16,312 bases of DNA, taken from the NCBI GenBank assembly GCA_014380825.1, contig JACMJD010000255.1:1-16312 (forward strand), given 5' to 3'. Both the position numbers and the translations under genes were made by a program. Numbering within the stretch: position 1 is the stretch's first letter; each line of letters starts with the position of its first letter. This DNA is from Phycisphaerae bacterium (GTDB lineage: Bacteria > Planctomycetota > Phycisphaerae > Tepidisphaerales > Tepidisphaeraceae). The notes under the pieces were generated by a model. It ran no database searches. It was given only the letters and a program-made list of their open reading frames with translations, and was not told the origin of the DNA. Positions 1,486 through 14,938 of the stretch are shown here, in pieces.

Positions 1486-1507
1486 TGATTCGAATCCGGA
1501 GCGCGAA

Positions 1508-1885
1508 ATGGCAAAGTCACACTCACCCGGATTCCTGAAGCTCGCCAACGACGCAAAGTCGCGCGTGACCGAGACGAACGTAATGGACGTCAAACATCGC
1601 GTCGACCGTGGCGAGCGTTTCAACCTGATCGACGTCCGCGAAGACCACGAGTGGGCCGAAGGACATCTGCCCGGCGCGATCCACCTGAGCCGCGGGGTCA
1701 TCGAGCGCGACATCGAGAACAAATTCCCCGACCCAACCACCGAGCTGGTCCTGTACTGCGGCGGCGGCTTCCGCTCCGCGCTGGTGGCCGAGAGCCTGCA
1801 GAAAATGGGCTACACCAACGTCAAATCGATGGACGGCGGATTCGGTGGCTGGAAAGATGCGGGCCACAACATCGTGCAGGATTGA
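1508..1885 (+). CDS. Single-domain rhodanese-like sulfurtransferase
   Basis: This is a 125-residue cytoplasmic protein consisting of one rhodanese domain. Family hallmarks are the CH2A-type stretch FNLIDVREDHEWAEGHLPGA (residues 39-58), the persulfide-carrying loop C84-GGGF-R89, and the C-terminal MDGGFGGWKDAG motif (residues 108-119). The active-site Cys is present, so it should be able to carry a sulfane sulfur; the physiological acceptor cannot be read from sequence. I chose the ATG at 1508 because GGAG (1498-1501) lies 6 nt upstream and the domain begins soon after. The open frame extends further 5' only because it overlaps rpoN out of frame. It is followed after 1 nt by the NADAR gene, which suggests a two-gene operon with translational coupling. 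Confidence 0.93.
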   Translation: MAKSHSPGFLKLANDAKSRVTETNVMDVKHRVDRGERFNLIDVREDHEWAEGHLPGAIHLSRGVIERDIENKFPDPTTELVLYCGGGFRSALVAESLQKMGYTNVKSMDGGFGGWKDAGHNIVQD

Positions 1886-1886
1886 A

Positions 1887-2375
1887 ATGCTCATCGGATT
1901 TCTCCTTGCCGTCTCGCTCGCGCTGCAGACTCATCCGACAACCGTGCCAGCGAAGATCGGTGAGTTCCAAGGCGAGTATCGCTTCCTCTCTAACTTCTAC
2001 CCCGCCACGGTTGAGTTCGAAGGCATCAACTATCCAACCGTCGAGCACGCGTATCAATCCGCGAAGACGCTGGACATCGCCGAGCGGAAACGCATCGCGG
2101 TGTTGGCGACTCCATCGGACGCGAAGCGCGAGGGCCGCAAGCTCAAGCTGCGGGACGATTGGGAGACGGCCAAGTTCGACGTGATGGAGCGATGCGTGCG
2201 ATACAAGTTCACGCGCGATGCCGACCTTCGTGCCAAGCTGCTGGCCACGGGCTATGCGGTCCTCGAAGAAGGCAACAACTGGGGCGATCAGGTCTGGGGC
2301 GTCGTCAACGGCGTGGGCGAGAATCGGTTGGGAAAGATTTTGATGAAACTGCGCGAGGAGTTGCGCGAGAAATAG
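1887..2375 (+). CDS. NADAR (YbiA-like) family protein with hydrophobic N-terminus
   Basis: This 162-residue protein matches the NADAR/YbiA fold, whose members are N-glycosidases acting on ADP-ribose-linked or riboflavin-pathway intermediates. Visible hallmarks are GEYRFLSNFYP (residues 29-39), PTVEHAYQSAKT (50-61), a central W..AK.DVM...RYKF segment, and GNNWGDQVWGV near the C-terminus. The ATG lies 1 nt after the rhodanese TGA, and AGGA (1878-1881) sits 5 nt upstream, so the start is well supported. That start gives an unusual leader, MLIGFLLAVSLALQTHP, which looks like a signal peptide or short membrane anchor, whereas typical NADAR proteins begin almost directly at the FxGEYRFLSNF strand. 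A GTG at 1944 would give a conventional short N-terminus but has no ribosome-binding site. The family is secure; its substrate and location are open. Confidence 0.93.
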   Translation: MLIGFLLAVSLALQTHPTTVPAKIGEFQGEYRFLSNFYPATVEFEGINYPTVEHAYQSAKTLDIAERKRIAVLATPSDAKREGRKLKLRDDWETAKFDVMERCVRYKFTRDADLRAKLLATGYAVLEEGNNWGDQVWGVVNGVGENRLGKILMKLREELREK

Positions 2376-2394
2376 CGACATACGGGGGGAACGC

Positions 2395-2418
2395 GATCCT
2401 GGCGGCTGCCGCAGGATC
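2395..2418. terminator. Hairpin between convergent NADAR and DinB genes
   Basis: GATCCTG (2395-2401) pairs with CAGGATC (2412-2418). After one bulged G, CGG/CCG extends the stem around a CTG loop. It lies 19 nt after the NADAR stop and touches the stop codon of the opposing DinB gene, so it could serve as a shared bidirectional terminator. No clear T-run is visible on either strand. Confidence 0.45.
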
Positions 2419-2921
2419 TACGCTCGACGAGCCAGCCCCATCATCCTTCTAAGCAACCGAATCTGCCCTGTGTGATACAGATCGTGCGCCGCCGCGCCGA
2501 GGATCAAGCGTGTCGTCTTCGCGTCCAATCGCTTCGGATCGATTCCCGCAACTGCGTCTCGCAGCTTCACGTGAATCGTGTGCAGCAGGTTCACATCCTT
2601 CTTCCAATTTCGCTCGCTCAATTCCTCCGGCAACATTGGCCAATCGCTGCCTCTTCGTTGGAACGGTTGCGTCCCGATCAGCAGATTCACGACGCGCTGC
2701 TTCCAATACGCCGCGTGCAGCACTTGCTGCCAGATGCTCCTACGGCGGGCGACCGACTTCGCCGCTCGTCGCGCATTCACGCCGCGAATCGAGCTTGTTA
2801 GATTCGGCCCGTGCCAGGCGGTTTTGTCGAACGCGCAATCGAGGTTCTGCAACAGCACCGCGGCGCGCGGATCGACCCGGTGAGCTGAAGTCTGTTTTCG
2901 CTGCATGTTCAAATTCTTCAC
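2418..2921 (-). CDS. DinB-fold protein (DinB/YfiT-like putative metalloenzyme)
   Basis: This is a 167-residue predicted four-helix DinB-like protein. Family marks are the first metal-ligand helix (WQQVLHAAYWKQ), a central TIHVKLRDAVAGIDPKRLD segment, and the C-terminal AAAHDLYHTGQIRLLRRMMG, where the HDxYHxGQ pattern supplies the other His ligands. Members include thiol-dependent transferases and many uncharacterised proteins, so no reaction is assigned. I chose the GTG at 2921 because GGGAGG sits 6 nt upstream. The ATG at 2906 and the GTG at 2945 are alternatives, but the latter lies upstream of that ribosome-binding site. The gene is convergent with NADAR and divergent from the decayed toxin-antitoxin pair. 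Expression is probably from its own promoter in 2922-3028. Confidence 0.85.
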   Translation of the reverse strand: MKNLNMQRKQTSAHRVDPRAAVLLQNLDCAFDKTAWHGPNLTSSIRGVNARRAAKSVARRRSIWQQVLHAAYWKQRVVNLLIGTQPFQRRGSDWPMLPEELSERNWKKDVNLLHTIHVKLRDAVAGIDPKRLDAKTTRLILGAAAHDLYHTGQIRLLRRMMGLARRA

Positions 2922-3028
2922 GGTCCACCTCCCGCAAACAAGCACCGGTATCCCGCGCCGCCATGGATTTCGTGAGGCGGGTTGCCGTCGCGCTCAAAGC
3001 GGCCGTCGATAATCGCGGGCGTCGCAGG

Positions 3029-3034
3029 TATGAT
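3029..3034 (+). promoter_or_regulatory. -10-like hexamer of a probable leaderless start
   Basis: TATGAT is followed by the 6-nt spacer TCACGC and the ATG at 3041. Transcription from this hexamer would begin at or next to the start codon. The same geometry and nearly the same spacer occur upstream of the DUF2917 and nucleotidyltransferase genes. No clear -35 element is visible. Confidence 0.5.
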
Positions 3035-3040
3035 TCACGC

Positions 3041-3231
3041 ATGAGCCTGGCCACCTTCAAGATCGCAAAAGGGAGTTCGTGGTCGTGCCCCGGCGGCGGT
3101 ACGAACAACTGACCAGGGTAGAGCAGGACCAGAAAGACGCGGAGATCGCCCGCAAGGGGCGCGAGGCGTTCCTGGCGGGGAAGCTCAAGACGATTTCGCA
3201 CGAAGAACTCAAGCGCAAACTCGCGCTGTAA
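3041..3231 (+). pseudogene. Frameshifted type II antitoxin (RelB/Phd-like, paired with RelE/ParE remnant)
   Basis: Reading starts at the ATG at 3041 as MSLATFKIAK, but that frame stops early (TGA 3110-3112). The -1 frame continues as REFVVVPRRRYEQL...EIARKGREAFLAGKLKTISHEELKRKL and stops at 3229-3231. Joined at the AAAAGGG run (3067-3073), the two parts give about 63 residues with the usual shape of small antitoxins: a short N-terminal strand, a VVxPRxxYExL hinge, and a C-terminal toxin-wrapping tail ending in SHEELKRKL. Neither frame alone makes the full protein, and the downstream frame has no plausible start codon before the hinge. The toxin remnant begins 3 nt later. I read this as a mutational frameshift in a dying module. 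A sequencing indel is possible; a programmed shift is less likely because AAAAGGG does not allow clean re-pairing of both tRNAs. Confidence 0.65.
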
Positions 3232-3234
3232 GTC

Positions 3235-3369
3235 ATGAGTTACCGGCTCGTCTACACGCCCGGCGCTCAACGTTCGATTGAGCGGCTGCCGCGCGACATC
3301 CAGAAACGCATTCTTAATCGCGCTCAAACCCTCGCCGCCAACCCGCGCCCGCCCTGCACCGTCGATTGA
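3235..3369 (+). pseudogene. Truncated RelE/ParE-like toxin
   Basis: A 44-residue frame begins MSYRLVYTPGAQRSIERLP and continues RDIQKRILNRAQTLAANPRPP. This is the N-terminal half of a RelE/ParE-superfamily toxin: first beta strand, two helices, and the NPRPP turn that usually leads into G..KLKG...WRIRVGDYRVIY. The expected 40-45 C-terminal residues carrying the conserved strand core and catalytic or contact residues are absent, and the frame ends at CTVD-stop. It follows the broken antitoxin by 3 nt, the normal arrangement of such operons. Without its C-terminal half it should not be active. The stop codon falls at the edge of an 11-bp inverted repeat (3369-3379 / 3463-3473). Confidence 0.7.
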
Positions 3370-3473
3370 TCCGCGTATTAGCCGAATCTCCTGAACCCAA
3401 TTGGATTGCCATCGCGGGTCGGTGATGCGCGTAGGATGGACGACTCCGCCGCGCGTTAGCACAATACGCGGAT
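3369..3473. repeat. Segment bounded by 11-bp inverted repeats
   Basis: ATCCGCGTATT at 3369-3379 is matched in inverted orientation by AATACGCGGAT at 3463-3473. The left copy begins in the stop codon of the truncated toxin, and the right copy overlaps the start codon of the asparaginase gene. The roughly 105-nt segment could be a small mobile-element scar or a folded leader. It holds no gene that I recognise. Confidence 0.4.
3460..3465 (+). promoter_or_regulatory. Weak -10-like hexamer before the asparaginase gene
   Basis: CACAAT is followed by 6 nt (ACGCGG) and the ATG at 3472. The spacing matches the better leaderless-type sites in the window, but the hexamer matches TATAAT at only 4 of 6 positions, so this is tentative. 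Confidence 0.25.
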
Positions 3474-4422
3474 GCTCCAACCGCTCATCCTTTCCACCTG
3501 GTCCTTCGGTCAACGTTCCAACGCAGCAGGCTGGCCGATTCTCGCGCGCGGCGGAACGAGTCTCGACGCGGTCGAAGCGGTCGGACGATTCGCGGAATCG
3601 GATCTGACCAATCCGACCGTCGGCATCGGCGGGCTGCCGGACGCGCTGGGGCGCGTGTCGCTCGATGCATCGATCATGCTGTCGCCTGGCAAGTGTGGTG
3701 GAGTCGCGAATGTTCAACGGTTCGGGCATCCGGTTTCGATCGCGCGAATGGTGATGGAGAAAACGCCGCACGTATTGCTCGTTGGCGCGGAGGCGGATGA
3801 ATTTGCGGCCGAGCACGGGTTTGATCCGGAAGAATTGCTGACGCCCGAATCCAAAGCGCGCTGGGAAAAGTGGCGGAAGGAAAATCCGCAGGGCCGCGGA
3901 TCGGGACCGATCCGGAATATCGAAGAGTCGAGCATGGGATTGAAAGGTCGCGACGCCGCGCACTTGCAAACCGCGCGAAACGAATCGCACGACACGATCG
4001 GCGTGCTGTCGATCGACGCCAGCGGCGTGCTCGCCGGCTGCTGCACGACCAGCGGCATGCCGTTCAAAGTTCCCGGCCGCGTGGGCGATTCGCCCATCAT
4101 CGGCCACGGCCTGTACGTCGACCCGCAATACGGCGCGGCAACAGCGACGGGTCACGGCGAGCTGGTCATGGGTATATGCGGATCGTTCTTAGCGGTCGAA
4201 GCGATGCGCCGCGGCGCGAGTCCGCTCGATGCCGCGATCGAAGTGCTCCAGCGCGTGATGAAGTCTTACGATCTCAGCGCTGAAGACCAGCTTGGGGTGA
4301 TCGCGCTCAACGCAAAAGGCGAATGGAGCGGCGCGTCGTTGAGAGACGGTTTCAGCATCGCGGTGAAGAGCGGCGCGCGCGATGAGCTGGTCGATTCACC
4401 TCGCGTGATGATGAAGGATTGA
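3472..4422 (+). CDS. Glycosylasparaginase-type N(4)-(beta-N-acetylglucosaminyl)-L-asparaginase
   Basis: This 316-residue protein is an N-terminal-nucleophile hydrolase of the aspartylglucosaminidase/isoaspartyl peptidase family. Such enzymes cut themselves into two chains and then hydrolyse the GlcNAc-Asn bond or beta-aspartyl amides. The autoprocessing site is the HDTIGV motif, with Asp174-Thr175 as the scissile pair and Thr175 as the new nucleophile. It is followed by the substrate-pocket block FKVPGRVGDSPIIGHGLYVD (198-217) and the ATATGHGELV loop (224-232), both very close to the eukaryotic lysosomal enzyme. The N-terminal half has the NPTVGIGGLPDALG region (47-60). No signal peptide is visible, so a cytoplasmic location is likely. 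The ATG at 3472 lies just before the first conserved strand (LILSTWSFG). There is no Shine-Dalgarno, and a weak -10-like box is 6 nt upstream. Confidence 0.95.
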   Translation: MLQPLILSTWSFGQRSNAAGWPILARGGTSLDAVEAVGRFAESDLTNPTVGIGGLPDALGRVSLDASIMLSPGKCGGVANVQRFGHPVSIARMVMEKTPHVLLVGAEADEFAAEHGFDPEELLTPESKARWEKWRKENPQGRGSGPIRNIEESSMGLKGRDAAHLQTARNESHDTIGVLSIDASGVLAGCCTTSGMPFKVPGRVGDSPIIGHGLYVDPQYGAATATGHGELVMGICGSFLAVEAMRRGASPLDAAIEVLQRVMKSYDLSAEDQLGVIALNAKGEWSGASLRDGFSIAVKSGARDELVDSPRVMMKD

Positions 4423-4538
4423 GTCGAACCCTCCACGGCCGTCCCAGAGCGCAGCGGCGGGCGGCATTCGGCACGCCGTACGTACAGATCACAACGTGAC
4501 AACCAACCGATAATCGCGGACAATCGACGTGATGTCAC

Positions 4539-5048
4539 ATGGGCTACCTACGTCAACCAATCCGTCGCAAAGCGGCGCGCGCCGAGAAGCTCGCGCACTT
4601 TGATGCTGCGCGGAACATTGATCCGGCCGATTGGTTGACCGCTGACCTTTCCGTGCTCCCGGCACGTGGCACGTTCCTTCGATTTATCGTGTTCGACCTG
4701 GAGTTGGGTTGGACCGGCGTGTTTCAGGGGCGATGGATGATTCGCGAATCCGCTGAATTGCCCGACTCAGTTCAGTCGTGCTATCGGGAAAACCGCAATT
4801 GGATGAATCGACATCTGCATTCGCCACGCCACGTGAATCCGGAATCGATCTTCTGGTTCCGTGCAGAAGCCGCCGAGTGCATTGATCGAATCCGCGAGCT
4901 GATCGAGCTCTATCGCGTGGCCGGGCACGAGGTGCGAATGCAGGCGACCCGCGATCCGGGATACATCGTGTATCAAGACGAACATCAGATCGCCGCGACC
5001 CCGCAGAGACAGCCGCGGCGCGGGCGCGTCACTACCAGCAAGTGTTGA
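4539..5048 (+). CDS. Hypothetical protein, family not recognised
   Basis: A 169-residue soluble protein I cannot place in a family. It has a basic N-terminus (RQPIRRKAARAEKLAHFDAA) and a central aromatic-rich stretch (FIVFDLELGWTGVFQGRWM, about 51-69). A Trp/His-rich section follows (RENRNWMNRHLHSPRHVNPE, about 84-103), then an amphipathic helix (AAECIDRIRELIELYRVAG). The end contains PGYIVYQDEHQIAATP and a basic tail. No signal peptide or membrane segment is seen. The last strand pattern before the tail is reminiscent of small planctomycete orphan proteins, but this is only an impression. The start is uncertain: no Shine-Dalgarno is visible, and GATAAT (4509-4514) and GACAAT (4519-4524) lie upstream as possible -10 boxes. 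It ends 8 nt before the convergent DUF2917 gene. Codon usage matches its neighbours, supporting a real gene. Confidence 0.7.
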   Translation: MGYLRQPIRRKAARAEKLAHFDAARNIDPADWLTADLSVLPARGTFLRFIVFDLELGWTGVFQGRWMIRESAELPDSVQSCYRENRNWMNRHLHSPRHVNPESIFWFRAEAAECIDRIRELIELYRVAGHEVRMQATRDPGYIVYQDEHQIAATPQRQPRRGRVTTSKC

Positions 5049-5056
5049 CGCGCTGA

Positions 5057-5356
5057 TCACCCTTCGCACAACCGCCGAACTTCGATCACCGATCGGTCCA
5101 GCGCCTGCACGACGAGCTTGCCGCGGCGGTTGGACAGGTAGCTCATGCCTGGCCGCACGATCACGTCGCGGGCGTCGCCTTCCTGGGTGATCCAGAGTTG
5201 GCCATCGATCGCGCGGATTTGGAGCGATGTGCAGTCGGCGAATGTCGCGACCGCGCCGTTCGCGAGGCGCAGGCGATCGGTTCTCGGGTCAACTTCGCCC
5301 GCGAAATCGTTTTGGATCGATTCGATCCCGCCGACGAAATGTTGAGTCGTCTTCAT
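5057..5356 (-). CDS. DUF2917 domain protein
   Basis: This small 99-residue protein is built around a DUF2917-like core: LRLANGAVATF, then SLQIRAIDGQLWITQEGDARDVIVRPGMSYLSNRRGKLVVQAL. The LWxTQEGDxxDxxxxxGxxxxL pattern is the family signature and suggests a small beta-sandwich or cupin-like fold. Its molecular function is unknown. I chose the ATG at 5356 because it directly precedes the conserved part; the open frame runs on to 5530 but crosses the divergent regulator's promoter and start. Six nt before this ATG is GATGAT with spacer TCAGGC, almost the same as the leaderless-type site at 3029. It is transcribed divergently from the MocR-like regulator, with about 96 nt between start codons. 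It is therefore the most likely local target of that regulator. Confidence 0.8.
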   Translation of the reverse strand: MKTTQHFVGGIESIQNDFAGEVDPRTDRLRLANGAVATFADCTSLQIRAIDGQLWITQEGDARDVIVRPGMSYLSNRRGKLVVQALDRSVIEVRRLCEG

Positions 5357-5362
5357 GCCTGA

Positions 5363-5368
5363 ATCATC
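5363..5368 (-). promoter_or_regulatory. -10-like hexamer for the DUF2917 gene
   Basis: On the minus strand GATGAT is followed by TCAGGC and then the ATG at 5356. The stretch from hexamer to start differs from that at 3029-3043 at only two positions. It would give a leaderless transcript. No obvious -35 is visible. Confidence 0.45.
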
Positions 5369-5381
5369 GCTCGTATTTGTG

Positions 5382-5410
5382 TTGCAAAACAGATTCACAG
5401 CGCGTAAATT
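5382..5410 (+). promoter_or_regulatory. Sigma-70-type promoter of the MocR-like gene
   Basis: TTGCAA (5382-5387) and TAAATT (5405-5410) are separated by exactly 17 nt, each matching consensus at 4 of 6 positions. The predicted transcription start, near 5417, falls inside the repeat assigned as the operator. A leader of about 36 nt would then carry the AGAGGA ribosome-binding site (5441-5446). Confidence 0.5.
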
Positions 5411-5413
5411 GTG

Positions 5414-5431
5414 ACCAGTACAGTTTGGTAC
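5414..5431 (+). promoter_or_regulatory. Candidate MocR-type operator
   Basis: Two (A/G)GTAC half-sites at 5417-5421 and 5427-5431 repeat with a 10-bp period, one helical turn, and ACCA (5414-5417) mirrors TGGT (5426-5429). MocR-family regulators typically bind such spaced direct repeats near their own promoter. Its position over the predicted start of transcription suggests autorepression, and it may also control the divergent DUF2917 gene. Confidence 0.5.
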
Positions 5432-5452
5432 GATCGAATTAGAGGAAATGCG

Positions 5453-6904
5453 ATGGCTCAAGCGACTGCCAGCAAAGAGTTTACGCTTTACGAGAAAGTC
5501 GTCGATCGAATCGTCGACCTGATCGATCACGGCACCCTGCGGCCCGGGGCGAAGCTGCCTTCAGTGCGGAAGCTCAGCCAGCAGCTCGATGTCAGCATCT
5601 CGACGGTGCTTCAGGCTTACCGAATTCTGGAAGATCGCGGAAAGATCTCGGCCAAGCCGCAGTCGGGGTATTACGTGCGGACGGATTCGTGGAAAGCGCC
5701 GCCTGAGCCGCGCGGACCACGCACGAAATCGTGCGCATCGTGCGAAGTCAGCATGGGCGAACGCGTGCGGCGCGTGTACGCCGCGATGGCGAACCCGAGC
5801 GTCGTTCGACTCGGCGCGGCCGTCGCCGGGTGGGAAATTCTGCCGACACGACAACTCAATCGACTCATGGCCGCCATCGCGCGGCGGGCGCCGTCGCAAA
5901 GCAGCAACTACGATCTGCCGCCCGGATGCGAAGCGCTGCGCGTGCAGATCGCGCGGCGCGCGATGGAAGCCGGCTGCGCACTGGCGCCGGACGACATCAT
6001 CACTACAGTCGGCTCATCCGAAGCGCTCGCGCTATGTCTTCGCACGGTCGCGAGGCCGGGCGATACGATCGCAATCGAATCGCCCACCTTCTACGGCATC
6101 CTTCAGACGATCGAACTGCTCGGCATGAAGGCGGTTGAGATCCCGACTCACCCGCGCGAAGGCGTCGACCTGGACGCGCTGGAGAGCGCGATCGATCACG
6201 ACGACGTTCACGCGTGCCTGTTCATCACCAACTTCAACAACCCGCTGGGCAGTTGCATGCCGGCCGAGTCGAAGCGCCGGCTTGTGCAGATGCTGGCCGA
6301 GCGCGAGGTGCCGCTGATCGAGGATGACGTATACGGCGAGCTGCCCTTCGACGACGCGCATGGCCGGCCGAGCACGTGCAAATCATTCGATACGGATGGC
6401 AACGTGATGTTGGTGTCGTCATTCAGCAAGACGCTGGCGCCGGGTTTGCGCATCGGTTGGTGCGCGCCGGGACGCTGGCGAGATGAAGTCCTGCGTGCGA
6501 AGTTGTTTACAACGCTTGCCACGCCGACGATCCCACAACTCGCGATCGCCGAAATGCTCGCCAACGGCGGCTTCGAGCACCATCTGCGGCGAATGCGAAA
6601 AATCTTCCGCGACAACGTTGGCCGGATGACGCAGGCGATCGTCGCACATTTTCCGGCCGAAACGCGCCTCACGCGCCCGGCGGGCGGGTTCGTGCTGTGG
6701 GTGGAATTGCCCGAACAAGTGGACGGAATGACGCTGCACGACCGCGCGATCGCCGAGCATATAAGCATCGCCCCGGGCGAAATGTTCTCGCCCACGCCGC
6801 ACCGGTTTGATCATTTCATCCGGATCAACTGCGGGCAATTGTGGACGGAGAAAACGGAGCGCGCGATCGCGACGCTGGGGAAACTGATCCGCGAAGCGAT
6901 GTGA
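5453..6904 (+). CDS. MocR-like GntR-family regulator with aminotransferase-type PLP domain
   Basis: This 483-residue protein combines an N-terminal GntR winged helix (about residues 8-78, including LRPGAKLPSVRKLSQQLDVS and VLQAYRILEDRG) with a fold-type-I aminotransferase-like domain. PLP-site marks are NFNNPLGS, the IEDDVYGEL Asp/Tyr motif, and SSFSKTLAPGLRIGW, in which Lys326 should form the Schiff base. The FVLWVELP segment and the C-terminal IRINCGQLW Arg region for substrate carboxylate are also present. Length is typical of MocR/PdxR/GabR proteins, which sense PLP or an amino compound rather than act as enzymes. The ATG at 5453 is supported by AGAGGA 6 nt upstream; an in-frame GTG at 5411 lies in the operator. 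A CSAxCEV-like cysteine pair (SCASCEVS, about 90-97) in the linker is unusual and could be redox- or metal-sensitive. Its ligand is unknown. Confidence 0.95.
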   Translation: MAQATASKEFTLYEKVVDRIVDLIDHGTLRPGAKLPSVRKLSQQLDVSISTVLQAYRILEDRGKISAKPQSGYYVRTDSWKAPPEPRGPRTKSCASCEVSMGERVRRVYAAMANPSVVRLGAAVAGWEILPTRQLNRLMAAIARRAPSQSSNYDLPPGCEALRVQIARRAMEAGCALAPDDIITTVGSSEALALCLRTVARPGDTIAIESPTFYGILQTIELLGMKAVEIPTHPREGVDLDALESAIDHDDVHACLFITNFNNPLGSCMPAESKRRLVQMLAEREVPLIEDDVYGELPFDDAHGRPSTCKSFDTDGNVMLVSSFSKTLAPGLRIGWCAPGRWRDEVLRAKLFTTLATPTIPQLAIAEMLANGGFEHHLRRMRKIFRDNVGRMTQAIVAHFPAETRLTRPAGGFVLWVELPEQVDGMTLHDRAIAEHISIAPGEMFSPTPHRFDHFIRINCGQLWTEKTERAIATLGKLIREAM

Positions 6905-6918
6905 CATGGCATGGACTT

Positions 6919-6972
6919 GTGTAGCCCCGCCGCTTGCGGCGGGTCAACCCGCCGCAAGCGGCGGGGCTACAC
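6919..6972. repeat. REP-like perfect palindrome with 26-bp arms
   Basis: The arms at 6919-6944 and 6947-6972 are perfectly complementary around a 2-nt centre. Each arm is itself a hairpin: CCCGCCG/CGGCGGG with loop CTTG (6926-6943), and the same stem with loop CAAG (6948-6965). The RNA could thus form one long stem or two small ones. It begins 14 nt after the MocR-like stop, so it may act as a terminator or mRNA stabiliser, though it lacks a T-run. It resembles repetitive extragenic palindromes; no REP-associated transposase is in the window. Confidence 0.85.
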
Positions 6973-7023
6973 GAATGCGGGGGGGGGCGCGGGACGCGCA
7001 TGCGACGAAACCGAATGAATCGG

Positions 7024-7503
7024 ATGGAAGACAGATCGTTCAACATCATCATCCGTCGCGGGAACACCGAGGAGCTGATCGATCTCCGGCACGAGATTTT
7101 GCGCACCGGCCTGCCGCGCGAGTCGGCGTATTTCAAAGGGGACGATGAACCGACGACAATCCATGTCGTCGCGGCGCTGGACGGCAAGGTCGTCGGCTGC
7201 GCGACGATGCTCCAGCGGCGATGGGAGCACCAATCGGCCTGGCAATTACGCGGCATGGCGGTCGCGCCGTCACTGCGCGGCACGGGGATCGGTGGAAAAC
7301 TGCTGAATGAAATCGAACGCCTGGCGGACGCGCAGGATTTCTCGAATCAATTCTGGGCCAACGCGCGCGTGCCGGCGGTGAAGTTCTATCAAGACCACGG
7401 CTGGACGGTCGTCTCCGAAGAATTCATGATCGAACACGCCGGGCCGCACGTGAAAATAAAAAAGCGAATGGAACCGCAGGTGAACACAGATCAACTCAGA
7501 TAA
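7024..7503 (+). CDS. GNAT-family N-acetyltransferase
   Basis: This predicted acyl-CoA-dependent acetyltransferase has about 159 residues from the ATG at 7024. GNAT features in order are an N-terminal strand and helix (FNIIIRRGNTEELIDLRHEIL), strand beta 2-3 (HVVAALDGKVVGCATML), and beta 4 leading into motif A (WQLRGMAVAPSLRGTGIGGKLLNEIE). The last contains the R/Q-x-x-G-x-G/A acetyl-CoA pyrophosphate loop as RGTGIG. Motif B follows (FWANARVPAVKFYQDHGWTVVSEEF). The substrate cannot be deduced. In-frame ATGs at 7000 and 7015 are equally possible starts, with no convincing Shine-Dalgarno. A nine-G run (6979-6987) and the palindrome lie just upstream. The final codons (VNTDQLR-stop) lie within an intergenic repeat arm (7481-7501), so the normal C-terminus may have been replaced by repeat sequence. 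Confidence 0.9.
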   Translation: MEDRSFNIIIRRGNTEELIDLRHEILRTGLPRESAYFKGDDEPTTIHVVAALDGKVVGCATMLQRRWEHQSAWQLRGMAVAPSLRGTGIGGKLLNEIERLADAQDFSNQFWANARVPAVKFYQDHGWTVVSEEFMIEHAGPHVKIKKRMEPQVNTDQLR

Positions 7504-7553
7504 GAGATTGAGTTTTGGTTTTCCATCTGTGTTAATCTGTGTTCATCTGTGGT
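7481..7553. repeat. Inverted element of ATCTGTGTT units
   Basis: The right arm carries three head-to-tail 10-nt units (7524-7533, 7534-7543, 7544-7553) of the form (C/A)ATCTGTG(T/G)T. The left arm 7481-7501 is the reverse complement of 7525-7545 with two mismatches, separated by 23 nt. The left arm encodes the end of the GNAT protein. The sequence type (AACCACAGATGAACACAGATTAACACAGAT on the other strand, given here only as a description of unit order) is familiar from intergenic regions of diverse environmental bacteria. It may function as a terminator-like fold between GNAT and deaminase. Confidence 0.75.
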
Positions 7554-7572
7554 TAATTAATCTGGAGCCGAA

Positions 7573-8025
7573 ATGGATCAGTTCCTGCGCGCCGCGATCG
7601 ACGAAGCGAAACAAGGTCTAGCCGAAGGCGGCCTGCCGATCGGATCGGTGCTGGTGCGTGACGGCCAGATCATCGGCCGCGGCCACAATCGTCGCGTGCA
7701 GCATGGCGATCCGATGGCGCACGCCGAGATCGACTGCCTCACCCGCGCCGGCCGACAGCGAACGTACAAAGACACCGTCCTCTACAGCACGCTCATGCCG
7801 TGCTTTTTGTGTACCGGCGCGGTGATTCAATTCGGCGTCCCCAAGGTGATCGTCGGCGAATCCGTCAACTTCCCCGGCGGCGAAGGCAAATGGGGAAAAT
7901 CGCCCGCATTCATGCGCGCGAACGGCGTGGAAGTGATCGACCTGCACGATGAAGAATGCATCGAAATGATGAGCACGTTCATCCGCGAGCACCCGACACT
8001 TTGGAATGAAGACATCGGGGTGTGA
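7573..8025 (+). CDS. Cytosine deaminase-like zinc nucleobase deaminase (yeast FCY1 type)
   Basis: This 150-residue member of the CMP/dCMP-deaminase fold hydrolytically deaminates a nucleobase, most likely cytosine to uracil. The zinc site is HAE (His50, Glu52 as proton shuttle) with PCFLC (Cys77, Cys80). It resembles yeast cytosine deaminase more than the amidohydrolase-type bacterial CodA. Shared features are EGGLPIGSVLV, GRGHNRRVQHGDP, YKDTVLYSTLMPCFLCTGAV, the VGESVNF loop, and the C-terminal lid ending HPTLWNEDIGV, whose Trp and terminal Glu/Asp residues close the pocket in the yeast enzyme. The ATG at 7573 has GGAG (7564-7567) 5 nt upstream. No pyrimidine transporter or regulator is adjacent, so it may work in salvage alone. 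A related base, such as isocytosine or a modified cytosine, cannot be excluded. Confidence 0.92.
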   Translation: MDQFLRAAIDEAKQGLAEGGLPIGSVLVRDGQIIGRGHNRRVQHGDPMAHAEIDCLTRAGRQRTYKDTVLYSTLMPCFLCTGAVIQFGVPKVIVGESVNFPGGEGKWGKSPAFMRANGVEVIDLHDEECIEMMSTFIREHPTLWNEDIGV

Positions 8026-8084
8026 GCGATTTCGCGCCAAGTTGACCGATCTGATTGAACGTGGATATTGTGGCCAAGACTTCC

Positions 8085-9803
8085 ATGGAACTAAACAAGC
8101 TCTACAACTCGGACTGCATCGCGGGGATGGCCAAGATTCCCGCGGGATCGATCGACTTGGCCTTTGCGGATCCACCGTTCAACATTGGCTACAAATACGA
8201 CGTCTACGAAGACCGCATGGCGGCGGATCAGTATCTCGACTGGACGAGACAGTGGGGCAAAGCGCTGGTCAAAACGCTGAAGCCCACCGGCACGGCGTGG
8301 CTTGCGATCGGCGACGATTTCGCGGCTGAGTTGAAGATGATCTTCCAGCGCGAGTTGGGGCTGTGCTGCCGAAGCTGGGTGATCTGGTATTACACGTTTG
8401 GCGTGAACTGCAAATACAAGTTCAGCCGCAGCCACACGCATTTGTTTCATTTCGTGAAGAATCCGAAGGAGTTCACGTTCAATCGCGATGCGATTCGCGT
8501 CCCGTCCGCGCGGCAGCTCGTGTATGCCGACGCCCGCGCCGATTCGCGCGGGCGAATACCCGACGACACTTGGATACTTCGCCCGCAGGACGCGCCCGAC
8601 AGCTTCACCGCCGAGGAGGATGTCTGGCACTTCCCGCGCGTCTGCGGAACGTTCAAAGAGCGCGCCGGCTGGCATGGTTGCCAGATGCCCGAGCAACTGC
8701 TCGGCCGAATCATCAATGCGTGCTCGAACGCTGGGGAAACGGTGCTTGACCCGTTCGGCGGCAGCGGAACGACGCTGGTGGTTGCCAAGAAGCTGGGGCG
8801 AAAGTTCATCGGCTTCGAATTGTCGGACAATTATGCCGCACAAATTCAGGCGCGGCTGAATCGCGCTTCGGCAACCGAACCCCTTGAAAATACGGACGAT
8901 TCGCCGATGAAAGCGCCGCCTACCGTCGCGGGCAAGCGCCGCGATGAAGCGGGAAAGCGCATCGCAACAGCGACGGGGGCAACGCAGGCGCCGGCCTTGC
9001 CTGTCGCGCGCCGAGCGAATGCGTCGCTGACGGATCGCGGCGTCGTCGAGGCGTTTGTCGCATCGCGACACGGCTTCCCGGTCGATCGCATCATCGCCGA
9101 CCCCGAGCTCAATGAGCAGTTTCTCGCTGCGTGCGTGCGGCTGGGCGTGCCGGGAAAACCGTTCGACTGGAACCATCGATTGATGCACCTGCGCAAAGCG
9201 AGCATTCTGAAAGGACTGCCCTGCTCGTCGCGCACGGTGCTGCCGTTCAAGCGCAAAGATTTCTACCGCTGCAAGTTCGCCTGCGAGATCGCCATCCAGC
9301 GATTTGAAACCGACTTCAACGTCACGCTTGATCACGTCCTGTGCGACCCAAAACTGGCGAGCCAGTTTGACGAGCTCGTGCTGACGATGCTGCCCGACAA
9401 GCCCAGCTCACTGGAAATTCGCTGGTTCGCGCTGCGAATCCGAAAGGCGGCAGACAAGATTTCTCAAGGCGCTTCGAAGCTGAGCAATCGCATCGCGATG
9501 CCGCGAGAATTCAAAAGCCCGTTCTCCGTCGAAGCCTCCAGCGTGCCGGCGGCTCCCGGTCTCTATTGGCTGCGCGGTGACGGAAGGAATTTGTATGTCG
9601 GCGAAACCGACAACCTTCAGGATCGGTTCGCCGTTCAGTTCGGTCACAAAAAGTTTGATTTCTGGAATACGCCGCTCACGAAGTTGATGCTCACATTCAA
9701 GCAGACTGATGTCCCGATCGCGGCCCTGCCGAAACATCAATCGCGATGGATCTCCGAGTGGCAGCCAATTGGCAATTTCGGCAAGCTGGCGGCAACGCGC
9801 TGA
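8085..9803 (+). CDS. DNA methyltransferase fused to a duplicated module and a GIY-YIG domain
   Basis: This is a 572-residue multidomain protein. Residues 1-260 are a beta-class amino-methyltransferase (N6-adenine or N4-cytosine). The catalytic motif IV DPPF (29-32) comes before the SAM-binding motif I DPFGGSGTT (222-230), followed by FIGFE with Glu245. A low-complexity linker (about 262-310) leads to two similar segments, 333-372 and 415-455, sharing (V/L)D..(I/V)..DP.L..QF and ending in RKA. Residues 490-566 form a GIY-YIG-like domain: GLY (492-494), LYVG (503-506), Arg514, and the QP..N end with Asn564. The position equivalent to the catalytic Glu is Gln552. Together this suggests a modification enzyme with an attached nuclease-derived domain, possibly a restriction-modification protein in one chain. 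I chose the ATG at 8085; TTG 8055 and GTG 8061/8070 are in-frame alternatives. The nucleotidyltransferase-fold gene follows after 27 nt. Confidence 0.9.
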   Translation: MELNKLYNSDCIAGMAKIPAGSIDLAFADPPFNIGYKYDVYEDRMAADQYLDWTRQWGKALVKTLKPTGTAWLAIGDDFAAELKMIFQRELGLCCRSWVIWYYTFGVNCKYKFSRSHTHLFHFVKNPKEFTFNRDAIRVPSARQLVYADARADSRGRIPDDTWILRPQDAPDSFTAEEDVWHFPRVCGTFKERAGWHGCQMPEQLLGRIINACSNAGETVLDPFGGSGTTLVVAKKLGRKFIGFELSDNYAAQIQARLNRASATEPLENTDDSPMKAPPTVAGKRRDEAGKRIATATGATQAPALPVARRANASLTDRGVVEAFVASRHGFPVDRIIADPELNEQFLAACVRLGVPGKPFDWNHRLMHLRKASILKGLPCSSRTVLPFKRKDFYRCKFACEIAIQRFETDFNVTLDHVLCDPKLASQFDELVLTMLPDKPSSLEIRWFALRIRKAADKISQGASKLSNRIAMPREFKSPFSVEASSVPAAPGLYWLRGDGRNLYVGETDNLQDRFAVQFGHKKFDFWNTPLTKLMLTFKQTDVPIAALPKHQSRWISEWQPIGNFGKLAATR

Positions 9804-9818
9804 GCGGCGGCGAGCTGG

Positions 9819-9824
9819 TATAAT
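9819..9824 (+). promoter_or_regulatory. Extended -10 promoter, probable leaderless start
   Basis: A perfect TATAAT preceded by TGG (extended -10, TGn) is followed by CCACGC and the ATG at 9831. Transcription should start at or next to the ATG, giving a leaderless mRNA. No -35 is recognisable, which an extended -10 tolerates. This separates the gene from simple read-through of the methyltransferase gene. Confidence 0.6.
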
Positions 9825-9830
9825 CCACGC

Positions 9831-10472
9831 ATGCTTCAGACCATCGTACGGAAGCCGCGGACTGCGGAAGACATCACCCAGGGGGCAAGGCTCGCCAAGA
9901 TGGACCATCGTGACATTGGGCCGGCGGAAGTCGCGAAAGTTCTCAACGCAGCGAAAGTTAGATTTGTGCTGGTCGGCGCGCACGCGGCCAACGGTTATCT
10001 CGGTCGTCCGCGCAACACGGTCGACGTCGATGTAATCGTTGAGCACCCAAAGAAAGCTTCCATTGCAATCGCGAAAGCATTTTCAAATCTGACGCTACGG
10101 GATACGCCGGTCGTGATCAGATTCACCCGACCGGATGGCGAGGAAGCCATCGATTTGATGAAGCCAGTCGGCTCGCCATTGTGGCGACATCTGCTAAAGA
10201 CCGCGGTGACGGTGAAAATCGATGGCGTGCCCGTTCGAATTCCTCCGGTCGAAGGAGTGCTGGCGGCCAAGCTTGCGGCGATGACGTCGCCGATGCGACG
10301 ACTTCTTGACAAGCAGCAGGATGGATTGGATTTCGCACGGATCGTCTCAGTCAACGAGAAGCTTGACCTTGCCGCGCTCTCAAAGATGGGTGAGCTGGTC
10401 TACGCCGGCGGTGGTCAGGAAATCCTCAAACACGTCGCGGATGCCCGGGCGGGTAAGCGGTTGGAATTCTGA
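9831..10472 (+). CDS. Nucleotidyltransferase-fold protein (AbiEii/MNT-like)
   Basis: A 213-residue protein with a pol-beta-type nucleotidyltransferase core. The line is VRFVLVGAHAANGYLGRPRNTVDVDVIV (43-70): a GA in place of the usual GG/GS at 49-50, then Arg, Thr and the metal-binding Asp65-x-Asp67. A later EEAIDLM segment probably gives the third acidic residue. A helical second half contains a PPVEGVLAAKLAAM stretch and DKQQDGLDFARIV, typical of AbiEii-like and related DUF nucleotidyltransferases (Lys and Asp-rich helix). Such proteins may act as toxins that modify tRNA or protein, or as housekeeping enzymes; no obvious antitoxin partner is next to it. Internal Met24 (MDHRDIG) is an alternative start, but ATG 9831 has the strong -10 hexamer. 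It is followed after 20 nt by the FkbM gene. Confidence 0.8.
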   Translation: MLQTIVRKPRTAEDITQGARLAKMDHRDIGPAEVAKVLNAAKVRFVLVGAHAANGYLGRPRNTVDVDVIVEHPKKASIAIAKAFSNLTLRDTPVVIRFTRPDGEEAIDLMKPVGSPLWRHLLKTAVTVKIDGVPVRIPPVEGVLAAKLAAMTSPMRRLLDKQQDGLDFARIVSVNEKLDLAALSKMGELVYAGGGQEILKHVADARAGKRLEF

Positions 10473-10492
10473 CTTACATCTCGTCGCTCGTC

Positions 10493-11365
10493 ATGTCATT
10501 CACCGAACGCGTCCTGAAACTCTACAGCCGCATCGCGCCGACCGAGCGCGGCGGATATCGGCTCGCTCGCGCAGCGCGCAAAACACGGCCGCGCGACGCT
10601 TGGCGAAGCACATTTCATACGCCTGATGGCTTCGATATCGACCTCGACCTCAGCGACTACCCCGACATCTGCATGGCGTACGGGTTGTACGAGCTGGACA
10701 CGGCCCGGCTCATCAAACGCCTGCTCAAGCCCGGCGATCATTTCGTCGATTGCGGGGCGAACATCGGATACTTCACGCTGATGGCGGCACAATGTGTTGC
10801 CGCAAGCGGGAAGGTCGACGCATTCGAGCCACAGGCGGCGAACTTTCAGCGATTGAGCGAGAACCTGCGTCGGAACAACTTGCTCGATCCCGTGCGGCTT
10901 CACGCGATGGCGCTGTCGGACCGCGAAGGAACGGTCGAGCTGTTTCGGCCAACGGAGAACGTCGACAATCACGGAACGTCGTCGATGTTTCCCGATCCGG
11001 AGTGGCAATCGCGCGCGGCCGGTACGGATGCAGTCGCGACGACCACGCAGGTGCGGACGGCGCGACTGGATGAGGTGCTCGCCGGGTCGAAGCCGAAGCT
11101 GATCAAGATCGACGTCGAGGGCGCCGAGCCGCTTGTGGCGAGTGGGATGAGCGGGCTGCTATCGGGCGATTCGCCGCCGAAGATCATTCTGGAATTCAAT
11201 CCACCCAAAGCCGCAGTCGCGGGATTCGATTCGACCGAGGCCGTAAAGCGATTGCTCGATGTGCGGCCGGACTATCAGATCTACACGGTCGGCTGGCGAC
11301 TGAAGCGCGTGATGATCGGCGAGTTGAAGCGGTTCTCGCAGATCAACGTGCTTGTCACGACGTGA
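10493..11365 (+). CDS. FkbM-family SAM-dependent methyltransferase
   Basis: A 290-residue class I methyltransferase of the FkbM family, typically methylating hydroxyl groups of sugars in glycans or secondary metabolites. SAM-binding motif I is FVDCGANIGYFTL (84-96), the ribose-binding acid is Glu112 in DAFEPQAANF, and the FkbM signature LIKIDVEGAEPLVASGM lies at 203-219. A C-terminal strand pair (QIYTVG, INVLVTT) completes the fold. The acceptor is not predictable. The ATG at 10493 gives the full N-terminus; no Shine-Dalgarno is evident. It is 20 nt downstream of the nucleotidyltransferase gene on the same strand. Its last 11 bp overlap the end of the convergent GT87-like gene, leaving no room for a terminator. 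The neighbouring glycosyltransferase and mutase-like flavoprotein hint at a shared surface-glycan role. Confidence 0.92.
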   Translation: MSFTERVLKLYSRIAPTERGGYRLARAARKTRPRDAWRSTFHTPDGFDIDLDLSDYPDICMAYGLYELDTARLIKRLLKPGDHFVDCGANIGYFTLMAAQCVAASGKVDAFEPQAANFQRLSENLRRNNLLDPVRLHAMALSDREGTVELFRPTENVDNHGTSSMFPDPEWQSRAAGTDAVATTTQVRTARLDEVLAGSKPKLIKIDVEGAEPLVASGMSGLLSGDSPPKIILEFNPPKAAVAGFDSTEAVKRLLDVRPDYQIYTVGWRLKRVMIGELKRFSQINVLVTT

Positions 11366-12668
11366 CAGGATCACGCCGAAACATCCGCCACAGCGCGACG
11401 GTCATCATCAACACGATCGACCAGAGCAGAAACGAATTGATCGGCTCGGTAACATGCCGCGCGCCGAAGACTTTCTGCGGGAACCACGCCAGCAGCAGCG
11501 CAACCGCGACAGCCGGACTAATGAGCAGCGCAGCCCGGCCGCGGGCGTGGAGCGCTTCGAAGATCATCCAGCCGTAGAAGGGGGCGAGGTATGCGAAATA
11601 ATGTTCCCACAGGATCGGGCTGAACATCAGCAGCCAGCAAAGCATGGCCACTGACGCGGCGCATGCGCGGGCCGGGATTCGCCATACGGTGAATGGTTTG
11701 CTGAACAGCGCGACCAGGATAATCAGCAGCAAGACCAGGCGCGCGACTCTCAGCCCGACCAAGGCCGACGGTGGAAGCACATCGACGTCGAGCACGCGAT
11801 GCAAGAACGCGGTTACCGAAACGTTCTGATCGCGAATCACGGGCCGGCCAAGCGTTGGTGCGATTTCGGTGGCGAACGTGCGATACGGTTGCACGCCGGT
11901 GATCGGCAGGGTGAGCAGCACAAACGCGCTGCCGATCGCGAGCGTCCAAATCAGTGTCCGCCAATGGCGCGCCGCCACGTGAATCGGCACGAAGATCGCG
12001 CTGACATATTTTGCCAAACCCGCAATCACCATGGCGATCGCGGGACGCACGCCCTGCCGATCGCTCGCGATTGAGAGGCCGATGTACCCGACAAGCCAGC
12101 CGATCATCGCCGACATGTTGCCCACGCGGGTCCAGCGATGAGCTTGAAGCGAAACGCAGATGAACAAAATGATCAGGCCCGGGACGAAATCGATTCGACC
12201 CGCGCAGAGCGCATACGCGCGAGCGCTTTGCCGCGCGATGCCCCACGTCGCGAAGCAGAGCAGCACGATCCACAGCGCATGCGCGATTCGAATCGGCAAG
12301 AACGTCAGCGGCACCAACAACAGTGCGAACGGCGGCGGCTGCATGTAGCGCGTGCCACCGCCGAGCTCGTCGAAACCGTATTGCCGCGCGAGTTCGGCGT
12401 AGCGCGGGCGCATCGTGGAGTTTTCCGGCTCGCCAGGATTCATCCCGGCGCGTGGGATTGGATATAGATCCGTCCACGCCCCGTGCCGCGCGATCACGCC
12501 GCCCATGTAGTACTGATCAAAATCCTGCGTCTGCGGCAGGTGCTGGCGATCGTACTGCACCCATTTCACGCCTTGGCTGAGCAATAAGAACGCGAGGCCG
12601 GCAATCGAGCAGATGAGATTGAACGTGCGCGGGCTCAATGCAAACAGAAGAATAAACCACGAAGGCAC
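11355..12668 (-). CDS. GT87-like (DUF2029) polytopic membrane glycosyltransferase
   Basis: A 437-residue integral membrane protein with roughly ten predicted hydrophobic segments, consistent with polyprenol-phosphosugar-dependent GT-C glycosyltransferases of the DUF2029/GT87 group. After the first membrane segment comes the extracytoplasmic loop with DFDQYY (about residues 48-54), where the GT-C acidic catalytic residue is expected, and TRYMQPPPFALLLVPL, a typical family stretch. The conserved MFSPILWEHYFAYLAPF block is near the C-terminus. The most upstream start is GTG 12668, which lies inside the repeat arm 12655-12680 and codes the first residues PSWF. A TTG at 12638 would start outside the repeat, so the true N-terminus is uncertain. 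The gene lies downstream of the flavoprotein gene on the same strand, separated by the repeat element. Confidence 0.88.
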   Translation of the reverse strand: MPSWFILLFALSPRTFNLICSIAGLAFLLLSQGVKWVQYDRQHLPQTQDFDQYYMGGVIARHGAWTDLYPIPRAGMNPGEPENSTMRPRYAELARQYGFDELGGGTRYMQPPPFALLLVPLTFLPIRIAHALWIVLLCFATWGIARQSARAYALCAGRIDFVPGLIILFICVSLQAHRWTRVGNMSAMIGWLVGYIGLSIASDRQGVRPAIAMVIAGLAKYVSAIFVPIHVAARHWRTLIWTLAIGSAFVLLTLPITGVQPYRTFATEIAPTLGRPVIRDQNVSVTAFLHRVLDVDVLPPSALVGLRVARLVLLLIILVALFSKPFTVWRIPARACAASVAMLCWLLMFSPILWEHYFAYLAPFYGWMIFEALHARGRAALLISPAVAVALLLAWFPQKVFGARHVTEPINSFLLWSIVLMMTVALWRMFRRDPVTS

Positions 12669-12730
12669 GAAGTCACGAAGAAGGCGCCCAAATAACGGGA
12701 ATCGCTTCGTGTCTTCGTGACTTCGCGGTT
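12655..12730. repeat. Inverted element of CACGAAG units
   Basis: Left arm 12655-12680 holds three CACGAAG-type units spaced 8-9 nt. The right arm 12705-12730 is its reverse complement with three mismatches over 26 positions, and a 24-nt loop separates them. It fills most of the gap between the flavoprotein stop (12742) and the GT87 gene, and supplies that gene's likely GTG start. It has the same architecture as the 7481-7553 element but a different unit. Confidence 0.8.
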
Positions 12731-12741
12731 CAAATTCTTTT

Positions 12742-14196
12742 CTACGAACGTGCCGGTGTCACCGGCGCCTGCCGTTCGGTCTTGGCGATCTCGTGATATT
12801 CGGCGTCTTCGTTGACGGCCCACGGGTCGCGCGGGTCGCCGTGCAATACGTTTTCGGCCGCGATCAGCGCAGTGGCCATCGAGTGGTCCTGGTTGTTGTA
12901 GCGGTGCTGTCCGTTGCGGCCGATGCAGTAGAGGTTGTCGACCGATTTCAGCCAGTTGCGAATGACGTCCAGCCGTTCCTGATAACCCGTGTCGTAAACC
13001 GGATACGCCTTGGGCATGCGAACGACGTAGCCCTTCACCAGGGCCCCGTCGGCCAGGCCGATCTGTTGAAGCTCGCGGTAGCCGAGTTCGATCAGCTTGT
13101 CGTCAGACGATGACCACAGCTCGTCGCCTTCATTCACAAAGTATTCCAAGCCCAGACAAGTCTTCGTCTGATCCGGCACCATGTACGGCGACCAGCTTTT
13201 GAAATTCTGAATCCGGCCCATCTTCACTTCTGGCGCGTGAATGTAGATCCAGTTGTCGGGGAACATATCTGGGTTGTCGATCACCAGCACGACCGTCAGA
13301 AAGTCCCGGTATTTCAGGGCGGTTGCCGCCGCGACGACGTCGGCGGGCGGCGCGGGATTCATCTCCAGCAGCAGATTTCGCAGCGGCATCGAGCTGAACA
13401 CGTGCGCTGCGGGCATCTCGGATGTCGCGCTGTTTCGATCTTGCACTGTCACGGACTTGATCGAGTTCTGATCGCGCGAGATGCCAACGACGCGCGTGTT
13501 CATCCGCACATCCCACCCGGCCGCGGTGATCGTCTTCGTCACGTTCTCCCACAACTGGCCCGGGCCGTGGCGGGGATATTTGAATTCATCAATCAACGTC
13601 GTCATCACCGCGCCATTTTTCTTCTGACCAAACAGCGCGTTGCGGACCGCCGAGCCGAGACTCAATCCTTTGATACGCTGGGCCGCCCAGTCGGCGCCGA
13701 TCTCTTTGCACGGGATGCCCCACACTTTTTCCGTGTAGCTCTTGAAAAACATGTTGAACAGCTTGCTGCCGAACTTATCGCTCACCCATTCTTCGTAGTT
13801 CTTCGGGTCGCGATTCGGCATCATACGCGCCTTGCCGTAACTCATCATGCAACTGGCGGCGCGAATCAGGCCCATGTTTTTCAAAGCGTTGGTGGCGCGA
13901 AGCGGGTAGTCGTAGAACTTTCCGCCGTAAAAGATGCGGCTCATGCGCGGGCGGAGGAGCATCGGCTCGCCGAGCATTTCGTCCCAGAGCGCTTCGATCG
14001 ATTTGACCTTCGAGAAGAATCGATGCCCGCCGATGTCGAAACGATAGCCGTCGCGCTCGACCGTCCGGGCGATCCCACCGACGACATCGTCGGATTCGAC
14101 GACCGTGCCGCGGCGACCGGCTTTCATCAGCGCATAGGCGGCGGTCAAGCCGGCAGGGCCGGCGCCGATGATCAGAATGTCGTCCGGATTACTCAC
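12742..14196 (-). CDS. FAD-dependent oxidoreductase, UDP-galactopyranose mutase-like group
   Basis: A 484-residue flavoprotein. The N-terminal Rossmann motif IIGAGPAGLTAAYALMKAG (9-27) is followed by VVESDDVVGGIARTVERDGYRFDIGGHRFFSK, the FAD-binding pattern shared by protoporphyrinogen-oxidase-like and UDP-galactopyranose-mutase-like proteins. The middle contains YTEKVWGIPC, and the C-terminus ends the FAD fold with IGRNGQHRYNNQDHSMATALIAAENV (from about residue 425). The latter motif is characteristic of polysaccharide-cluster members. The exact substrate is unknown; a sugar nucleotide or a lipid-linked intermediate is plausible. I chose the GTG at 14196 because the conserved fold starts seven residues later. 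The frame reaches an ATG at 14343, but the extra 49 residues look unconserved and overlap the HD gene. GT87-like and FkbM neighbours support a glycan role. Confidence 0.92.
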   Translation of the reverse strand: MSNPDDILIIGAGPAGLTAAYALMKAGRRGTVVESDDVVGGIARTVERDGYRFDIGGHRFFSKVKSIEALWDEMLGEPMLLRPRMSRIFYGGKFYDYPLRATNALKNMGLIRAASCMMSYGKARMMPNRDPKNYEEWVSDKFGSKLFNMFFKSYTEKVWGIPCKEIGADWAAQRIKGLSLGSAVRNALFGQKKNGAVMTTLIDEFKYPRHGPGQLWENVTKTITAAGWDVRMNTRVVGISRDQNSIKSVTVQDRNSATSEMPAAHVFSSMPLRNLLLEMNPAPPADVVAAATALKYRDFLTVVLVIDNPDMFPDNWIYIHAPEVKMGRIQNFKSWSPYMVPDQTKTCLGLEYFVNEGDELWSSSDDKLIELGYRELQQIGLADGALVKGYVVRMPKAYPVYDTGYQERLDVIRNWLKSVDNLYCIGRNGQHRYNNQDHSMATALIAAENVLHGDPRDPWAVNEDAEYHEIAKTERQAPVTPARS

Positions 14197-14305
14197 GCGA
14201 ACCGCACACTCTACGCGGCCCGTGTAGGCAGGCAAGCGACTGCAGCGTGCAGCGGTGAGGTTGCTCACAGCGCGAGCGGACGTTGCGGCAAGCTGTGCGG
14301 ATTCT

Positions 14306-14938
14306 TCATGCGTGCGCAACAGTGTGCGCACGTTCGACGGCAACTTCCACCTTCAAATCGAGCAATTCTTCCAGCAGGCGGAACTTCTTGCGGCGTCGGA
14401 AGACTCTGCGGGCTTTATTGAGATCAGACTGAACGAAACAGTTGATTGAAAGGCGGCTGCCCTTCAGCGCGATCGCCAGCGTGGGCGGGTGAAGCTGGCG
14501 GCTGTCGAGCACGTCCGCGGCGCGGAGCAGCGCGAGGATCTTCATGAGCGACTTGCGGCCGTCGCCGTCGCGGAGAATGCCGTCGAAGCCGAGGCGCGGC
14601 ACGGCGCCGCGGTGATATCGCGTCAGATACGCAAGCGCCCGGCGCTGTCGCGCGGTGAGCGGCAGATAACCGTCTTCCTCGATCATCCGCGCGCCGTCGG
14701 CGGGATGATTCTTCTCGCCGAAGCGCCTTCCGATATCGTGCAGCAGCGCCGCCAGGCGCAGCAGGCGGCGGTCGCGCGGGTTCAGGCCGTGCAACTCTTC
14801 CGTTAGATCAAACAGTTTGCTCGCGATCACCAGCACGCGGCGCTCGTGATCGAGCTGCTTGAGCTGCCGCCGCGCATAGGTGGCCGCAGCGTGTTCTTTG
14901 AGGGAGGAATGATTGCCGACGCGCCGATCCTGTGGCAT
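14306..14938 (-). CDS. Stand-alone HD-domain protein related to the Ppx/GppA C-terminal domain
   Basis: A 210-residue protein corresponding to the HD-type helical module found behind the phosphatase domains of exopolyphosphatase/guanosine pentaphosphatase. Features are His31 in LDHERRVLVIASKLFD, the HD pair His67-Asp68 in LAALLHDIGRRFGEKNHPADGARMI, TARQRRALAYLTRYHRGAVP, and a C-terminal part with LLRAADVLDSRQ and a basic RRVFRRRKKFRLLEELLDLKVEV. The actin-like Ppx/GppA catalytic domains are absent, and no partner supplying them is in the window. It may act alone on a phosphorylated nucleotide or be a separated subunit. The ATG at 14938 is the only good start; CCGGAG lies about 10 nt upstream. 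The last codons include a perfect 8-bp hairpin (14311-14318 / 14325-14332). It precedes the flavoprotein gene by 109 nt on the same strand. Confidence 0.85.
   Translation of the reverse strand: MPQDRRVGNHSSLKEHAAATYARRQLKQLDHERRVLVIASKLFDLTEELHGLNPRDRRLLRLAALLHDIGRRFGEKNHPADGARMIEEDGYLPLTARQRRALAYLTRYHRGAVPRLGFDGILRDGDGRKSLMKILALLRAADVLDSRQLHPPTLAIALKGSRLSINCFVQSDLNKARRVFRRRKKFRLLEELLDLKVEVAVERAHTVAHA
14311..14332. repeat. Short perfect hairpin at the 3' end of the HD gene
   Basis: CGTGCGCA (14311-14318) and TGCGCACG (14325-14332) form an 8-bp stem with a 6-nt loop, inside the last coding codons of the HD gene. There is no T-run. It may be fortuitous or help define the mRNA 3' end. Confidence 0.35.

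Follow-up and report, generated by a model that had tools for sequence, protein, structure and literature searches.

A beta-class DNA methyltransferase of Planctomycetota whose tail is probably an inactivated paralogue of its partner GIY-YIG nuclease

The stretch of DNA analyzed here, referred to as the window, is a whole contig of 16,312 bases and contains at positions 8085-9803 (forward strand, as for all features given below) a methyltransferase gene, the product of which is called M in the following. Re-reading of this gene agreed with the original prediction of a single continuous frame leading from methyltransferase motifs through a duplicated region to a GIY-YIG-like domain: a methyltransferase domain is followed by a helical module, the two halves of which are related to each other, and by a GIY-YIG fold. 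The methyltransferase domain (residues 1–262, 8085..8870) was assigned by PF01555 (E = 2.1e-48) and the structures of CcrM, MboIIA, M.BceJIV and RsrI. Its DPPF motif IV (residues 29–32, 8169-8180) precedes the FGGSGTT motif I region (DPFGGSGTT, residues 222–230, 8748-8774), and this order of DPP[FYW] before FxGxG, together with the PF01555 profile, is that of the beta class. DPPF usually indicates N6-adenine methylation, and judged from these motifs M is most likely a beta-class enzyme of the adenine-N6 type, which would methylate adenine at a specific site. A linker of low model confidence (residues 263–312, 8871..9020; pLDDT about 30 for 270–311) connects this domain to the module, the first half (residues 313–371, 9021..9197) and second half (residues 390–463, 9252..9473) of which were delimited by model helices and repeat comparison. 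A GIY-YIG fold after residue 480 was looked for in the structure prediction and is present (residues 484–570, 9534..9794); it carries the GxY and YxG motifs of the superfamily and is predicted, based on the structure model and the active-site columns, to be catalytically dead. Pfam applied to the whole of M found confidently the methylase alone.

The gene following M (9831-10472) encodes a protein resembling DUF2204 nucleotidyltransferases (E = 3.2e-5), which also matches AbiEii weakly (E = 0.001), and no match to it was found in the 80 genome loci (best of at least 560) described below. The genes at 9-8025 and 10493-14938 are ordinary by Pfam and comprise a sigma-54 factor, rhodanese, NADAR, asparaginase 2, GntR-aminotransferase, GNAT, deaminase, FkbM methyltransferase and an HD domain protein. 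That no separate restriction endonuclease gene lies near M, as stated originally, was borne out within the window, whereas relatives carry a paralogous gene next door; it encodes a stand-alone partner-type protein, here called R. The window holds no remnant of R or of the small gene X that accompanies it elsewhere, R being absent within the 16 kb, and methylase and nuclease genes do not stand side by side here.

A search with residues 275-572 returned 95 proteins including the query, 85 of them with a length of 533–635 aa and 10 shorter, and a genome scan yielded at least 560 related stretches, of which the 80 best were taken as loci (78 labelled Planctomycetota, 2 labelled 'bacterium' alone). 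Besides the query, 94 proteins share this architecture, as do genome loci of Planctomycetota, and the concern that the fusion might be an assembly error does not hold. Within the phylum the distribution is patchy, tail-bearing methylases being present in 14 of 294 sampled genomes. The methylases of L038, L055, L066 and L068, 71–78% identical to the window's methylase domain, have no tail, and no R was found in these genomes at the threshold used; the tail is therefore dispensable in these four close relatives.

In 20 of the 80 loci (best of at least 560), the next gene after M encodes R, a stand-alone protein consisting of the module and a GIY-YIG domain; 16 of these genes are complete, two reach the contig end (L034, L051) and two are stopped early (L003, L006). 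An adjacent R is absent from 52 loci, of which four also lack the tail on M, and eight loci end within 700 bases after M. Because of these 52 loci, most M are not explained by protection against a neighboring R. The active-site residues G, Y, Y, G, R, H, E and N of R were invariant in 16/16 aligned examples and in all 120 homologues listed (of 1016 found), and on the strength of its sequence R is very likely a nuclease. With in-frame start codons picked by position, the start of R overlaps the stop of M by four bases in 10 of 18 loci and by one base in four, and lies within 10 bases of it in the other four.

Scanning 298 genomes of one class (that of G358) with an R profile, with at most eight candidates scored per genome, gave a match at 1e-20 in 23 genomes. 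Sorting by E-value and frame length, with R taken as E below 1e-80, assigned 14 genomes to R, three to M without such an R (two with an R piece), one to a different tail-bearing methylase and five to other stand-alone forms. Each of the 14 R genes is preceded immediately by M on the same strand, and R was seen only behind M in this class sample. Eight of the 14 genomes had previously been found through M; the other six were new, and each of the newly found pairs has Glu in R (6/6), Gln in M (6/6) and an overlapping start (6/6). A scan of 392 genomes of the phylum detected R once, beside M, and a scan of 45 genomes of one order detected it once, in the same genome. As R lies directly behind M in 14/14 cases, usually with overlapping starts, it is not a chance neighbor. 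Among 50 genomes with M and no adjacent R, 46 matched the R profile, none of them below 1e-80, and eight encode a related stand-alone protein elsewhere. We consider it quite probable that R and M form a restriction-modification pair, in which R would cleave and M would protect.

The tail alignment comprised the 95 database proteins and the 80 genome loci (best of at least 560). In the column of the metal-binding Glu, none of the 170 rows having a residue shows Glu, although these are not independent cases because some rows of both sets represent the same protein: all 94 database rows with a letter have Gln, and the 76 genome loci with a letter have Q (64), R (7), K (4) or F (1). In the window's M this residue is Gln552 (9738..9740), the column of which falls on the UvrC Glu in the UvrC alignment, and the metal-binding Glu of an active GIY-YIG nuclease is thus missing. 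The position of R's catalytic His (Arg+4) is occupied by Gln518 (9636..9638); it is Gln in 91 of 94 database rows, which are close relatives, and varied among the 80 genome loci (Gln 27, Thr 14, His 10). Both Tyr residues, the Arg and the Asn are retained in nearly all aligned M tails. The tail of some M is badly decayed. According to the accessible part of a study on R.Eco29kI, the E142A variant lost cutting and nicking with fairly robust DNA binding retained, and H108F lost cutting and bound more weakly than E142A (PMC1952068). From these active-site columns, the tail of M is almost certainly dead as a nuclease.

An unrooted tree from a quick search (80 rows: 44 M tails, 28 R and 8 exported-looking forms), which includes two long M branches, contains one branch (SH-aLRT 99) parting the 44 M tails from the 36 stand-alone forms. 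Since related nucleases carry the Glu, its loss in M is the simpler reading. Across 16 pairs, R distances correlated with methylase-domain distances (Mantel r = 0.36, p = 0.0001) and, weakly, with tail distances (r = 0.27, p = 0.019). A dN/dS of 0.05–0.24 in the tail versus 0.02–0.08 in the methylase was obtained for the 18 closest M pairs, which are not independent because they were drawn from four clusters. Purifying selection thus acts on the tail in these relatives, and the presumably dead domain is maintained under looser constraint than the methylase. No R was seen alongside the M of these pairs, with L009 and L021 ending too soon to tell, and the tail is more decayed in several R-bearing loci (e.g. 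L010, L016, L022, L032).

The genome locus nearest to the window by tail on this tree, L056, carries M, R and X, as does L002, and L191 contains M in two pieces, an R piece of 120 aa and X. As L056 and also L002 have all three genes, the pair is the likely older state in the window lineage, and a local change by which R was lost or moved elsewhere is likely. A separate paralogous gene outside the window most likely encodes, or once encoded, the nuclease partner; the original prediction missed R because its gene is absent from the window. Given that no partner gene is present there, the window's M probably works alone.

With some confidence, we favor the reading that M is the modification half of a pair that is patchy in Planctomycetota and ends in a paralogue of its partner nuclease R that has been inactivated. 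The N-terminal domain would methylate its adenine site, while the tail, corresponding to R's helical module and GIY-YIG fold minus the metal-binding Glu, would most likely still hold DNA (or R) and help the methylase to reach the site that R would cut; R, where encoded, lies immediately after M and in most cases overlaps the M stop codon. It appears comparably probable that the tail serves as an address rather than only as a partner of R. A single-chain restriction-modification enzyme of a type IIC-like kind, in which the GIY-YIG tail cuts and the N-terminal domain protects, was among the options offered originally and would be in line with the retained fold and most active-site residues (two Tyr, Arg, Asn), as well as with an engineered one-chain fusion of Eco29kI R and M that works, as described in the accessible part of the source (PMC3039593). 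This option is very improbable, as Glu is missing in 170/170 rows, the His position is Gln in 91/94, and the equivalent E142A variant of R.Eco29kI neither cuts nor nicks in the data accessible to us (PMC1952068). The other option, a methyltransferase using a nuclease-derived domain for DNA binding, stands as far as the nuclease-derived tail is concerned, while its binding of DNA is what we infer.

Two further explanations bear on the role of R. M and its tail could act in host gene expression or replication as an orphan regulatory methyltransferase, R being a secondary or unrelated neighbor. CcrM and M.BceJIV are among the close structural relatives of M, 52 of the 80 loci (best of at least 560) lack an adjacent R, purifying selection acts on the tail in pairs for which no R was seen, and the orphan methylase BCAM0992 of Burkholderia cenocepacia affects gene expression according to the accessible part of its description (PMC7364216); however, the patchy distribution (14/294 phylum genomes with a tail-bearing methylase) and the position of R directly behind M in 14/14 cases, usually with overlapping starts, argue against this role, which we regard as fairly unlikely. 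Alternatively, M and R might form one complex, the dead GIY-YIG domain pairing with the live one to yield a methylation-checked nickase or a regulated nuclease. Tail and R are indeed paralogues of the same layout, stem from overlapping genes and show weakly correlated divergence (r = 0.27, p = 0.019), but the tail stays under selection in loci without a seen R, and its stronger decay in several R-bearing loci such as L010, L016, L022 and L032 is the opposite of what would be predicted for a needed partner, and such a complex is improbable.

How two unrelated enzymes come to, and continue to, read the same site is an old question in type II restriction-modification. An M that carries a seemingly dead paralogue of its apparent own nuclease bears on this question, and with several states seen among relatives (complete pair, R broken, R gone, tail gone) it therefore becomes testable by tail deletion or exchange. 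The two-gene GIY-YIG type II system Eco29kI likewise has separate methylase and nuclease genes, and R.Eco29kI has the Y-Y-R-H-E-N set in common with R. In contrast to Eco29kI-type systems, M here belongs to the DPPF, adenine type and bears the apparently dead R paralogue, a helical module lies at the N-terminus of R, and the small gene X is often third; the family may be regarded as a naturally occurring equivalent of R.Eco29kI E142Q, an inactive variant made by engineering. Deinococcus radiodurans reportedly possesses an m4C two-gene type II restriction-modification system with a GIY-YIG nuclease. CcrM, M.BceJIV and MboIIA resemble M in methylase domain, motif order and fold (26–28% identity), yet to our knowledge none has a GIY-YIG tail; CcrM has its own C-terminal DNA-binding extension. 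The N-terminal GIY-YIG domain of UvrC is the closest solved one to the M tail by sequence profile and structure, but UvrC retains the Glu, has other partner domains and is a repair enzyme.

The combination of methylase and GIY-YIG in one chain is already known from the accessible parts of earlier reports (PMC1564403; PMC3039593). In Lactobacillales, a methylase is fused ahead of an Slx1-cluster GIY-YIG; unlike in M, this methylase is of the NPPY, COG4123 type and the GIY-YIG belongs to another cluster, and the accessible part of that report does not refer to a dead partner-nuclease copy (PMC1564403). Winged-helix GIY-YIG type IV enzymes, as far as their description was accessible, cut adenine-methylated DNA and have a helical part before the GIY-YIG, as in R (PMC11037411). 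An inactivated partner-nuclease copy inside a methylase is new within reach of the literature searched.

The eight stand-alone forms encoded elsewhere (L165-L171, L173) combine the module with a GIY-YIG domain retaining Glu and have a hydrophobic N-terminus resembling a signal peptide, as judged by eye; they are possibly exported nucleases. No methylase was found in the 3-4 kb read around these genes. With such Glu-bearing forms lacking a neighboring methylase, the module does not have to serve as a site reader matched to a methylase. L192, one of the five other stand-alone forms of the class scan, has lost the Glu, and no methylase lies within 3 kb of it. L194 (G624) encodes a different methylase, spread over two open frames (5773-7740 and 7807-10944), which terminates in the module and GIY-YIG known from the M tail; its Glu position, as read by eye, is occupied by Arg. 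PADLOC assigned the first frame to DrmMI (E = 1.9e-68) and the second to type IIG, Pfam assigned Eco57I to both, and a DpdE/DrmD-like helicase (DpdE E = 2.1e-261) is encoded next to them in a defense-gene neighborhood. In this one case the same tail sits on an unrelated DrmMI/type IIG-like methyltransferase. We tentatively raise the possibility that module and dead GIY-YIG constitute a portable addressing part from an inactivated restriction nuclease: the methylase would locate its sites by means of a dead copy of the nuclease against which it protects, with both halves of the system sharing one target reader. Such a part would keep nuclease and methylase specificities in step by a route other than a shared specificity subunit.

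Sampled proteins of the small third gene X (about 118–126 aa) matched nothing above cut-off in Pfam, NCBIfam or PADLOC. The gene follows R in 10 loci (L001, L002, L004, L005, L010, L011, L022, L032, L041, L056) and five more (L184, L185, L187, L189, L191). The R frame of L185, a locus with M and X as well, includes the complete R sequence of Anaerobaca lacustris (P0191) without a mismatch. Finally, M and a short R piece in L003 and L081 are located on a 20,538-base contig that is listed as viral in IMG/VR and is perhaps a provirus.
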